The notes under the pieces were generated by a model. That model searched no databases. It worked only from the letters and a program-made list of their open reading frames with translations, and was not told the origin of the DNA. 64,000 nucleotides of DNA from Variovorax paradoxus B4 (GTDB lineage: Bacteria; Pseudomonadota; Gammaproteobacteria; Burkholderiales; Burkholderiaceae_C), in NCBI RefSeq assembly GCF_000463015.1, contig NC_022247.1:1550001-1614000 (forward strand), read 5' to 3'. A program made the translations under genes and the position numbers. This document shows, one piece after another, positions 23,172 through 26,659 of the stretch (its first letter is position 1; each line of letters begins with the position of its first letter).

Positions 23172-23895
23172 TCAAAGATAACTGGCGATGATCGACTGCC
23201 AGAGCCGGTAGCCCTCGTCGGTCATGTGCAGCCTGTCGCTCCTGAACAGTTCCGGCCGGGCCCGGCCGTCGGCACCGAGCATCGGCGTGAAGACGTCGAT
23301 GTATTCGCTGTCGGGCAGCCGGTTGAGGTAGGCCGAGATCACGTTGTTGGTTTCGCGGATCTGCGACATCAGGTGCTCGCGCGAGGGGCTCGGCTTGATC
23401 GAGATGAAGCTGATGCGCGTGTTGGGCAACTCGGCGCGCACCGCGTTGGCAAAGCGCGCAAAGCTCTCGAGCACCTGCAGCGGCGTGCGGCCTTCGGCCA
23501 GGTCGTTGTCGCCGGCGTACACCAGCACCTGCCGCGGCCTGTAGCGCACCACCAGGTCGCGCGCGAACAGGCTGCAGTCGGCCAGGGTCGAGCCGCCGAA
23601 GCCGCGATTGACGATGCCGGGCACCTGGCGGAAATCCTGCCCGAGGTTCTTCCACATGCGCACGGTGGAACTGCCCACGAACACCACGCCGCCGGGAGCC
23701 GGGAACTGCTGCTGGTCGGCCCGGAAGAAGGCGGCAAGCTCGTCGTGCCCAGCGCGCCTTGGCGGCGAGGTATTCGGAGGAAGCGTCTGCGGCGGCGGAG
23801 CCGTCCGCCTCGTAGGGGAAGGCGGCCGAAGCGGTCTGGGCATGCGAGGCAAGCGCTGCCGTCAGCAGTGCGGCCGCGAGCAGCGCGGATTTCAT
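23172..23895 (-). pseudogene. SGNH/GDSL-family hydrolase, interrupted by one frameshift
   Basis: From 23895 one frame gives a signal peptide (MKSALLAAALLTAALASHAQ) and about 45 residues up to AAKARW. An extra G in the GGG at 23748-23750 then breaks the frame; removing it gives ARW-HDELAAFFRADQQQ. The catalytic domain continues as FVGSSTVRMW (Ser of the GDS-like block I), NRGFGGSTLAD (Gly block II), YAGDNDLAEG (Asn block III) and a C-terminal SDRLHMTDEGYRLW (Asp/His block V). The 724-bp span equals 240 codons plus stop plus one base. Substrate is probably an acyl or acetyl ester in the periplasm. It follows the anti-sigma gene by 28 bp and may belong to the ECF operon. ATG at 23904 is an alternative start. 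Confidence 0.82.
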
Positions 23896-23923: not shown

Positions 23924-24676
23924 TCAGATGGTTTTCTCAATGAGGGCGCCCTTGAACACGATCGGGCCCTTCGGACCGCTGCCGGGTGGCACGCCGCCCT
24001 TGGCTTCCAACGTAACGGCCAGGGTCGGCACGGCGTGGACATCGGATTCTGACGCAGCCAGCCGCAGCGCCGGCGCATTGTCGAGCACGCCGAGCGAGCG
24101 CGGCGCGCCGCCCGGCGGCAGGGCCCAGAGCTGCAGCGACTTGTCGGCGTCTTCGCTGTAGCTGCCCACGCGCTGCAGCACCAGCTGCCGCTTCCTGGGG
24201 TCGAAGGTCACGAGCATCGAGGCGGTGGCCTTGTCGTCGGACAGCACCGCCACGTACTGGATCGCCGGCGCGTTCTGCAGCTGATCGCGCAGGTTCAGCC
24301 CGACCACCACCGCCATGACGGTGGCAAGCGCACCGGCCGCGGCGGCGCCGCGCCAGAGCGCGAGGCTGCGCAGCCAGCCGCCAGGTGCCGGGGAGGCGTT
24401 GGGGGCCGCACCGCGCTGCCGCCCGATGGCGTGCTGCGCCTGCTCGGCGTCGACCATGTTGCGGATGCGGGTCCAGACCGCGGCGTCGGGGACGACCGGG
24501 CTTTGCAGCTCGGTCATGCTCGCGAGCCGGCCCTGCCACACCAGCGCCGCGGCGCGCACCGGCGCCTGTTCGCGCGCCAGGGTTTCGAAGCGCCGGCGGG
24601 CGCCGCCGCGCAAGGTGCCGAGCGCATGGCTCGCGGCCAGCAGCTCGAGCAGTTCGGGGTGGGCGAGAAGGTTCAT
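23924..24676 (-). CDS. Anti-sigma factor, RskA type
   Basis: A 250-residue protein downstream of an ECF sigma gene (25-bp gap). The N-terminal helical part (LLELLAASHALGTLRGGARRRFETLA) is the sigma-binding domain of RskA/anti-sigma-K-like proteins, without a zinc-binding Cys/His cluster. One transmembrane helix follows (about 110-130, AAAAGALATVMAVVVGLNL). The periplasmic C-terminal domain reads LQLWALPPGGAPRSLGVL and ends in FKGALIEKTI, typical of the RskA domain. It should hold the sigma factor at the inner membrane and release it after regulated proteolysis. The inducing signal is not known. Confidence 0.9.
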   Translation of the reverse strand: MNLLAHPELLELLAASHALGTLRGGARRRFETLAREQAPVRAAALVWQGRLASMTELQSPVVPDAAVWTRIRNMVDAEQAQHAIGRQRGAAPNASPAPGGWLRSLALWRGAAAAGALATVMAVVVGLNLRDQLQNAPAIQYVAVLSDDKATASMLVTFDPRKRQLVLQRVGSYSEDADKSLQLWALPPGGAPRSLGVLDNAPALRLAASESDVHAVPTLAVTLEAKGGVPPGSGPKGPIVFKGALIEKTI

Positions 24677-24701: not shown

Positions 24702-25295
24702 CTAGGCGAAGCGTCCCATGCACAGGCGCAGTTTTTCGAGCCCGCGCCGGATCCAGGTCTTGACCGTGCCCAGCGGCAGCTTCAGCTGCTCGGCCAGTTC
24801 GCCGTGGCTCAGCTCGCGCAGGTAGGCCAGGCTCACGACCTCGCGCTGGCGGGCCTCGAGCTGGCTCAGGCACTGGTGCAGCGCCCAGGCCTGCTCGCTG
24901 GCGTCGGCCGTGTCGGCCGGGCTGGGTGCATCGGATTCGATCGTCTCGGCCATCAGCTCGTCGAACTCCTGGGTGAGCTGGGCGCGATCGGCGGTGCGGC
25001 GGCGCAGCAGGTCGAGCGAGCGGCTGCGCACGATCAGCCCCAGCCAGGCGAGCGGCGGGCTCAGCGTGCCGCGGTAGTCGCCGGCCGCGCGCCAGACCGT
25101 CATGAACGATTCCTGCAGCACGTCCTCGGCCCACTCGCGCTGCCGCACGACACGCATCGCCAGGCCCATGAGCCTGGGCGCCGTCCGGTCGTAGAGCAGG
25201 CGCAGCGCGACCTCGTCGCGGCGCCCGATGCGATCGATCAGCGAGATCAGTTCGGCGTCGGGGCTGGGTGCTGTCATGCGCGGATTGTGGGGCAT
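24702..25295 (-). CDS. ECF-type RNA polymerase sigma factor (SigK-like)
   Basis: A 197-residue sigma-70 family ECF factor. Region 2 covers LLYDRTAPRLMGLAMRVV, WAEDVLQESFMTVW and the -10-recognition segment. Region 4 near the C-terminus is LSHGELAEQLKLPLGTVKTWIRRG, the helix-turn-helix that reads the -35 element. The partner anti-sigma factor follows directly. ATG at 25295 and ATG at 25277 (MTAPSPDAEL) are both possible; the predicted promoter at 25313-25341 would leave only about 11 nt of leader before 25295, so 25277 may be the true start. An identical promoter core faces the other way toward the DUF3455 gene, implying that this sigma controls both itself and that lipoprotein. Confidence 0.93.
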   Translation of the reverse strand: MPHNPRMTAPSPDAELISLIDRIGRRDEVALRLLYDRTAPRLMGLAMRVVRQREWAEDVLQESFMTVWRAAGDYRGTLSPPLAWLGLIVRSRSLDLLRRRTADRAQLTQEFDELMAETIESDAPSPADTADASEQAWALHQCLSQLEARQREVVSLAYLRELSHGELAEQLKLPLGTVKTWIRRGLEKLRLCMGRFA

Positions 25296-25312
25296 TGGCC
25301 TGCATGGAAAAG

Positions 25313-25341
25313 GTACGGCGGCGCGGCGTTGACGGATTCAC
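25313..25341 (-). promoter_or_regulatory. Predicted ECF promoter of the sigma/anti-sigma operon
   Basis: Read on the minus strand: GTGAATCC, 15 bp, CCGTAC (then CTT). The -35-like box is at 25341-25334 and the -10-like box at 25318-25313, placing a start about seven bases downstream, just ahead of the sigma gene. The core boxes and spacing are identical to those of the divergent promoter at 25352-25380, while the spacers differ, which is what selection on a sigma-recognition site predicts. Confidence 0.65.
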
Positions 25342-25351
25342 TTCGGCCGCC

Positions 25352-25380
25352 GTGAATCCATTCGGCCACGGCTGCCGTAC
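25352..25380 (+). promoter_or_regulatory. Predicted ECF promoter of the DUF3455 gene
   Basis: GTGAATCC at 25352-25359, a 15-bp spacer, and CCGTAC at 25375-25380, followed by AGG. This is the exact core found in the opposite orientation 10 bp away in front of the ECF sigma gene. It would give the DUF3455 message a leader of about 90 nt. Prediction only; no transcript data. Confidence 0.65.
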
Positions 25381-25478
25381 AGGCCTGCGAGACCGTCGAA
25401 AACGCACGACACCAAGGACGGACTCGCGCTCCATTCATTCATCATCGATCCGAAGAAATTCGGGCAAAGGAACCGTCC

Positions 25479-26024
25479 ATGACCATCCGCATCCTGACCG
25501 CGCTCGCCACAGCCGCTGGCCTTGCCGCCTGTTCCGGCATGGGGGTCAAGCCCCCGATGTATTCCCAGGCCAGCCTGCCCGACGCGGTGAAAGTGCCGGC
25601 CGGCCACGCCGTGGCCATGGAGACCGTGGGCACCGGCGAGATCACTTACGAATGCAGGGCCAAGGCCAACATGCCCGGCCAGCACGAATGGGTCTTCGTC
25701 GGCCCCGACGCCAGGCTGACGGACCGCAGCGGCAAGCAGGTGGGCAGGTACTACGGTCCACCCGCCACCTGGGAGAGCATGGATGGCTCCAAGGTCACGG
25801 CCACGCAGGTGGCGGTGGCGCCCAACGGCGGCGGCAACATCCCGCACCAGCTGGTAAGGGCGAACCCGGCCATGGGCACGGGGGCCATGCAGGGTGTGAG
25901 CTACATCCAGCGCGTCTCCACGCAGGGTGGCGTGGCGCCGGCCGCGGCCTGCGACGCCTCGGCCATGGGCCGGAAGCAGGTCGTGAAGTACCAGGCCGAC
26001 TACATCTTCTACCGCGCCATCTGA
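25479..26024 (+). CDS. DUF3455 domain lipoprotein
   Basis: A 181-residue protein. The signal peptide ends in a lipobox-like LAAC (Cys about 18), so it is probably a lipoprotein of the cell envelope. The mature part matches DUF3455: PAGHAVAMETVGTGEITYECRAK, HEWVFVGPDARLTDRSGKQVGRYYGPPATWE, and the C-terminal GRKQVVKYQADYIFYRA. Four cysteines could form disulfides. AAAGGA stands about 11 bases before ATG. It is divergent from the ECF sigma operon behind a matching promoter, and is the best candidate effector of that regulon here. Molecular function of the family is unknown. Confidence 0.85.
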   Translation: MTIRILTALATAAGLAACSGMGVKPPMYSQASLPDAVKVPAGHAVAMETVGTGEITYECRAKANMPGQHEWVFVGPDARLTDRSGKQVGRYYGPPATWESMDGSKVTATQVAVAPNGGGNIPHQLVRANPAMGTGAMQGVSYIQRVSTQGGVAPAAACDASAMGRKQVVKYQADYIFYRAI

Positions 26025-26122: not shown

Positions 26123-26659
26123 ATGAAGCAAATTGCGATCGTTGTCGCGCTCTGCGTGGGCGCGTGGTACTTTTTCATCGGCGGGCGCAAGCTCGACGAG
26201 GCCATGGTGCGCAAGTACTACGAGAAAGAGGCGCACGCCGTCTATTCGCGCGATACCGAGCTGCTGTGCAAGCAGCTCAGCAAGAAGGCCGTGATCCAGA
26301 GCAAGACGATCATGATGGGCCGCACGCAGGAGACCACCAGCGACCGCGAGCAGGCCTGCGAAGGCATCCGCAAGTCTTTCAAGATGTTCGAGTCGGTGGG
26401 TGAGCGCATGGGCGGCATCCTCACCATCGAATACGAGTACCACATCGACAGCATCGACGTGGCGAGCGACCGCAGGAGCGCCACCGTCGAGGGCACCAGC
26501 GTGCTGAAGATGGGCGAGGCGGCCATGCAGTTCAAGAGCAGCTTCACGCAGCGGCTGGAGCGCGAACTGGGCCAGATGCGGCTCGTGCGCGGCGACGACG
26601 TCACGGTGGTGCGTCTGGGCGGGCGCGGCGCCATGAGCCAGAGCGACTTCTTCAAGTAA
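26123..26659 (+). CDS. Hypothetical membrane-anchored protein
   Basis: A 178-residue protein with a single N-terminal hydrophobic segment (IAIVVALCVGAWYFFIGG) acting as a signal anchor and a polar, charged remainder, predicted to face the periplasm. The remainder (LDEAMVRKYYEKEAHAVYSRD, then alternating strand-like segments ending MSQSDFFK) resembles a small cystatin/NTF2-like alpha+beta fold, but I cannot name a family. ATG at 26123 follows GGGGCGGGGA, a plausible ribosome site. It lies 15 bp upstream of the next membrane-protein gene on the same strand, so they are probably co-transcribed. Confidence 0.75.
   Translation: MKQIAIVVALCVGAWYFFIGGRKLDEAMVRKYYEKEAHAVYSRDTELLCKQLSKKAVIQSKTIMMGRTQETTSDREQACEGIRKSFKMFESVGERMGGILTIEYEYHIDSIDVASDRRSATVEGTSVLKMGEAAMQFKSSFTQRLERELGQMRLVRGDDVTVVRLGGRGAMSQSDFFK

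Follow-up and report, generated by a model that had tools for sequence, protein, structure and literature searches.

Within the window, by which we mean the whole 64,000-nucleotide stretch of Variovorax paradoxus B4 DNA that was analysed, a gene for an ECF sigma factor and a gene for a DUF3455 lipoprotein are oriented away from each other, with two predicted promoters lying back to back between them. The features of the locus are as follows.

23172..23852, minus strand: GDSL-type hydrolase (Pfam Lipase_GDSL_2), on the same strand as and 3' of rskA; a candidate operon member by position
23924..24676, minus strand: RskA-type anti-sigma factor (Pfam RskA_C), presumed to be co-transcribed with the sigma gene
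24702..25295, minus strand: SigK-like ECF sigma factor (Pfam Sigma70_r2, r4 and r4_2) with cysteines C142 and C192
25313..25341, minus strand: predicted ECF promoter facing the sigma gene; GTGAATCC at 25334-25341, CCGTAC at 25313-25318, core TGAATCC-N16-CGTA
25352..25380, plus strand: predicted ECF promoter facing the DUF3455 gene; GTGAATCC at 25352-25359, CCGTAC at 25375-25380, core TGAATCC-N16-CGTA
25479..26024, plus strand: DUF3455 lipoprotein (Pfam DUF3455, PF11937) with a lipobox-like C18; predicted beta barrel

The sigma factor matches the Pfam r2 and r4_2 domains with 54.1 and 56.3 bits, respectively, both above the cut-offs, and its score against TIGR02937 (98.5 bits versus a cut-off of 42.9) places it among the ECF sigma factors of the sigma-70 family. 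Its best NCBIfam match is SigK (NF007228), at 130.5 bits versus a curated cut-off of 226, and because this cut-off was missed the protein is referred to here as SigK-like. The best match in the PDB is 4nqw, SigK of M. tuberculosis, followed by SigE of 2q1z, a protein from R. sphaeroides (PMC7406223). C142 and C192 have aligned counterparts among the cysteines of 4nqw, with a separation of 50 residues in either protein, and both positions are conserved in at least 90% of the sigma factors from 36 class A and 25 class C loci (see below). The product of the adjoining gene matches RskA_C with 78.9 bits (cut-off 29.4), which was its sole Pfam match; a ChrR-type cupin domain was absent from the Pfam search results. 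Against the equivalog NF052375 this protein scored 65.3 bits, below the cut-off of 100.

The lipoprotein covers the complete DUF3455 profile (positions 1–157 of 157) with 117 bits against a gathering cut-off of 25, and two of its cysteines, C59 and C158, are invariant in an alignment of 47 sequences. A structure model suggests a likeness, with moderate scores, to the barrels of dirigent proteins, allene oxide cyclases and Diels-Alderases. Downstream (3') of the gene there is a small ORF (26123-26659, plus strand) whose start resembles a membrane anchor and which has no match in Pfam; a similar small ORF lies directly next in several sigma loci devoid of DUF3455, behind a CGTATACTG-like element.

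Predicted twin promoters and their conserved core

The initial annotation of this region described identical boxes occurring once on each strand, 10 bp apart and with differing spacers. A scan of the window confirmed this: GTGAATCC-N15-CCGTAC is present in two exact divergent copies with unlike spacers and 10 bp between them. The orientation given there, with one copy facing the sigma/RskA operon and the other the DUF3455 lipoprotein gene, agrees with the gene coordinates and Pfam assignments. The scan of the whole genome (7,148,516 bp) that the same annotation suggested returned exactly these two positions of the window and nothing else. Matches averaged 0.00 in 100 dinucleotide shuffles of the window. 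A search of 25200-25560 for sigma-70-type promoters and terminators found none, and a comparison with plasmids returned 8 records with partial matches, none of which reached 80% query coverage.

In order to define the constant part of the motif, we compared 46 upstream regions and then 118 non-redundant DUF3455 loci; the part retained throughout is TGAATCC-N16-CGTA. The longer boxes first proposed are exact in the window, but across relatives their flanking letters vary, namely the leading G as well as the first and the last C of CCGTAC. Within the core, the first T of the -35 element is present in 68% of sigma-facing sites, and the third base is A in 81–85%, otherwise mostly C. The columns of the boxes are partly fixed by the search pattern, and the independent evidence comes from the spacing scans and from the columns left free. 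In the free flank and spacer columns of the divergent-locus sites the commonest base accounts for 35–77%, with the exception of the base following the sigma-facing -35 element, which is G in 31/31 sites. The first C of CGTA, which the DUF-facing pattern left free, is C in all 34 of 34.

The genome contains the core three times versus ~0.5 expected under a Markov model of order 2 built from the window. The third occurrence (C2:785557) has, under the filter applied, no coding-like ORF start within 300 bp downstream; it was considered as a regulon member and rejected, being treated as a chance match. The relaxed pattern YGMATCC-N16-CGTA yielded 12 genomic sites versus one for a reversed-pattern control. 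Three of the 12 belong to the sigma, DUF3455 and fasciclin genes; the remaining nine are the chance match just described and eight sites overlapping long ORFs with high third-position GC, a weak measure, since ORFs overlapping the sigma and fasciclin sites are flagged by it as well. A further reversed-pattern control is possibly composition-biased, and therefore no enrichment factor is claimed from it. Relaxed versions do occur within coding-like sequence, as they would if a short motif merely recurred by chance in intergenic DNA rich in GC, but the full motif is expected ~0.02 times per genome and was found twice, both times at promoter positions of one locus, and it is conserved at fixed spacing in relatives; the likelihood of coincidence is practically negligible.

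The regulon appears larger than the two divergent units proposed initially, for an unlinked gene carries the same type of site. The genome's single fasciclin gene (C2:572406-572975, minus strand), which lies outside the window, is preceded by CGAATCC-N16-CGTA at C2:573059-573085, departing from the core only in the first base of the -35 element. Based on this match, the fasciclin gene is predicted to be the third member of the regulon. A table of fasciclin loci was compiled from relatives, comprising 107 loci from 83 of the 92 genomes with a match and omitting distant rows, fragments and some further paralogs. Among full-length orthologs (at least 78% identity), NG[AC]ATCC-N16-CGTA was found upstream of 42/46 in sigma-bearing genomes and 4/4 in sigma-less ones, with a spacing of 16 only and no match on the opposite strand; the four orthologs lacking a site include one (in G273) with only 92 bp of upstream sequence on its contig. 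Of the 57 other fasciclin loci, 25 have the site (19/41 in sigma-bearing and 6/16 in sigma-less genomes), and a single match is on the opposite strand.

Arrangements of the site among relatives

For a broader comparison, 138 DUF3455 loci were collected from the best matches of each search (30, 28 more, and the best 80 of 383), and 118 remained after removal of 20 that shared their last 120 upstream bases. In class A (36 loci, 20 of them from the same genus and 16 from elsewhere) the DUF3455 gene is divergent from the sigma gene, as in the window. TG[AC]ATCC-N16-CGTA precedes DUF3455 in 34/36 of these loci, the sigma-facing site is present in 31/36 and both are present in 29/36. The spacing is 16 in all 34 DUF-facing and 31 sigma-facing matches, and scans of spacings 8–25 for DUF-facing TGAATCC and 10–23 for sigma-facing sites found no match at any other. 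Conservation of the boxes in relatives, proposed as a check in the initial annotation, largely holds: the DUF-facing site was found in 18/20 same-genus and 16/16 other loci, and the sigma-facing site in 19/20 and 12/16, respectively. In a minority, nevertheless, an outcome that this annotation named as refuting is seen, both genes being kept and a site missing. Within the genus these are two DUF-facing sites (L088 and L090, although the sigma gene adjoins DUF3455) and one sigma-facing site (L089); the sigma-facing site is also unmatched, next to a sigma gene, in L033, L039, L123 and L161.

The class A loci also bear on a different reading of the pair, in which GGATTCAC-N10-GTGAATCC would be the single operator of a dimeric regulator serving both genes and CCGTAC would be incidental. 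In the window the two -35 copies do constitute a perfect inverted repeat of 8 bp around a 10 bp loop. However, among the 29 loci that have both sites the -35 boxes lie between 8 and 48 bp apart, a variation that suits two promoters better than one symmetric operator, and on this ground the palindromic operator was rejected. CGTA, moreover, is constant at 16 bp in class A, and single sites exist in loci without an adjacent sigma gene. We regard the operator as highly improbable.

Class B (48 of the 118) comprises loci whose fetched flank contains no related sigma gene; this flank extended upstream for less than 2 kb in 22/48 and for at least 3 kb in 26/48. The site is present on the coding strand in 33/48 and on the opposite strand in 0/48, and those with exact TGAATCC have a spacing of 16 (24 sites) or 17 (6 sites). 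In class C (25 of the 118) DUF3455 is followed on the same strand by a gene for a distant sigma factor, sigma', ~32–42% identical (L019, L020, L021, L029, L032, L034 and others), in most cases with a match to rskA' behind it; L259-L266, L268-L273 and L276-L278 also belong here. The element upstream of DUF3455 in this class has another form, TGCATCC-N16-NGTAG, found in 22/25 loci, with G or T before GTAG in 20, and never on the other strand.

In nine further loci the sigma gene is further away. In all nine, the 250 bp next to DUF3455 are free of a site; a forward site lies in another part of the interval from the sigma gene to DUF3455 in 9/9 and a reverse site in 7/9. In one of them, L132, a gene for a Ferritin_2 protein (Pfam; L132:1865-2458) lies between the sigma gene and DUF3455, occupying the divergent position with the sites in front of it, and a gene for a DUF3034 protein then follows. 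Similar ferritin-like proteins, some with a Tat-like signal, are encoded in L041, L122, L125 and L152, the intervening gene being found in Hydrogenophaga- and Rhodoferax-like loci. In genome G209, the position opposite the sigma gene is taken by a DUF4331 protein (L210:1239-2735, minus strand) instead of DUF3455, and the locus has both sites.

Sixteen further sites were recovered from relatives (L213-L228). Five precede fasciclin genes, two face sigma genes, and those in L219 and L224 are within an oxidoreductase-like ORF that is followed by a second one. Seven (L213, L216, L217, L218, L220, L223 and L227) have no clear target at the site; these either count against a simple regulon or are due to chance.

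Sites, target genes and the adjacent sigma factor

To ascertain how closely the sites follow the genes, we considered Variovorax sigma loci, taking the best 30 of 69 matches. All 30 have the sigma-facing site; the DUF-facing site occurs in 10/11 with an adjacent DUF3455 gene and in 0/19 without one. In the lone exception (L234, from G230) the DUF3455 gene is broken into two fragments and the -35 element is altered. A separately fetched locus (L209, from G228) retains the DUF-facing site and is missing DUF3455. The initial proposal that the boxes are promoters recognised by the sigma factor is hence supported by the genome scan, by conservation 5' of both genes and by a presence or absence that tracks the gene.

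Some sites persist in genomes devoid of a close sigma homolog, a genome being counted as sigma-bearing if it had a sigma match at E 1e-40 or better. In three sigma-less Variovorax genomes (G224, G232 and G267) the fasciclin site is kept and the DUF-facing -35 element is degenerate; in three others (G239, G292 and G294) the DUF-facing site is intact and the fasciclin -35 element is degenerate. G229 retains the fasciclin site and gave no match to DUF3455, the DUF3455 gene of G288 is devoid of a site, and in G212 and G218, which have no close sigma factor, a fasciclin paralog is preceded by an exact TGAATCC site. The persisting sites may reflect recent loss of the sigma factor, or some sites may be read by a second ECF sigma factor.

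The latter thought can be extended to a reading in which another ECF sigma factor, for example of the RpoE-ChrR (ECF11) type, recognises some or all of the sites and the adjacent one is not the sole or main driver. It would account for the fasciclin sites that persist in sigma-less genomes and the DUF-facing sites in G239, G292 and G294, and a fasciclin gene of Azospirillum has been stated to be under RpoE-ChrR control (PMC10949492). Against it, every one of the 30 best-matching sigma loci has the sigma-facing site, and each of the six genomes G224, G232, G267, G239, G292 and G294 has one degenerate -35 element, as expected after loss of the reader. In addition, the sigma homologs in these six genomes are just 29–31% identical, and G229 has no sigma homolog at E 1e-14. 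We consider such a reader unlikely, though far less so than the operator discussed above.

The reading that we favour, with a probability of about 0.86, is that the two sites are back-to-back promoters for the adjacent SigK-like sigma factor which, upon release by RskA, would drive sigma-rskA, DUF3455 and the unlinked fasciclin gene. The membrane RskA-type anti-sigma factor would hold the sigma factor and then release it; the freed protein, together with RNA polymerase, would transcribe sigma-rskA leftward, resulting in positive autoregulation, and the DUF3455 lipoprotein gene rightward. The same holoenzyme would also read the unlinked promoter before the genome's only fasciclin gene, each promoter being composed of a -35 element TGAATCC, a 16 bp spacer and a -10 element CGTA. 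What the analysis shows is the sites themselves, their constant spacing and conservation, the way they track the neighbouring genes, and the third site; binding by this particular sigma factor and gating by RskA are inferred. By analogy with SigK, the shared cysteine pair points to a putative redox-related trigger.

Relation to known systems and significance

CCATCC is a promoter word of SigK. An ECF11 consensus contains TGATCC and CGTA, which are related to the core described here. This relation and the second-best PDB match, SigE of 2q1z, link the system to the RpoE-ChrR singlet-oxygen response; it differs in its anti-sigma factor, which has RskA_C only and no ChrR-type cupin. The resemblance to SigK-RskA/MPT83-MPT70 of mycobacteria and Yersinia enterocolitica is based on the adjacent RskA_C gene, the aligned cysteines C142/C192 and a predicted fasciclin lipoprotein target, and extends to the small size of the regulon and the predicted inclusion of the sigma factor's own operon. 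An RskA-type neighbour, the cysteine pair and a fasciclin gene under the same promoter, as judged from the site match, are features of the SigK-RskA type (ECF18/ECF19). In contrast to that system, the adjacent divergent target is here DUF3455, the fasciclin gene is unlinked and the NCBIfam SigK cut-off is missed. In Y. enterocolitica a minimal mpt83-sigK-rskA cassette has a SigK site upstream of mpt83, and equivalents of SigK cysteines 133/183 are reported for 94% of ECF18, 56% of ECF19 and <2% of other families (PMC7509140). The small SigK regulon has been listed as including mpb70 and mpb83, MPB70 having been shown to resemble fasciclin domains (PMC10540498). An ECF18 factor of Pseudomonas syringae, orthologous to P. 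putida RpoT, is likewise encoded with its anti-sigma factor in a predicted operon; the neighbours given in the description of that locus include a cysB homolog and nhaA, with no DUF3455 or fasciclin gene named there (PMC3597554).

The kind of system is therefore already known. Searches of open PMC papers turned up no description of DUF3455 as a target, of the promoter within this group or of the second motif version, and these three elements are apparently new. DUF3455, a domain of unknown function, becomes tied to a predicted envelope stress regulon, and the known pairing of sigma factor and fasciclin gains a new group and, within it, an additional target. For beta-proteobacteria, the site itself provides a precise and testable recognition sequence of a SigK-like sigma factor. 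A study of Delftia acidovorans on soybean roots reported two DUF3455 genes to be 20-fold higher at day 7 than at day 2 (PMC7725335); genes of this kind may therefore have a part in colonising roots, and we infer for them a putative control by an ECF sigma factor.

More tentatively, and with some doubt on our part, SigK-like redox modules of Comamonadaceae and their relatives might have DUF3455 as a core output. In this view the DUF3455 product, a small lipoprotein with a predicted barrel, might act in the envelope by binding a compound that is oxidised or lipophilic, and could feed back on RskA. At least two such modules would have split into promoter dialects over the same target family, TGAATCC-N16-CGTA with the divergent sigma factor and TGCATCC-N16-(G/T)GTAG with the downstream sigma', sigma factor and promoter having co-diverged. 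Two versions of a motif before one target family, each beside its own sigma factor, offer a natural case for studying change in ECF specificity and, if the proposal is true, the split between the dialects would constitute a natural pair of orthogonal ECF switches.
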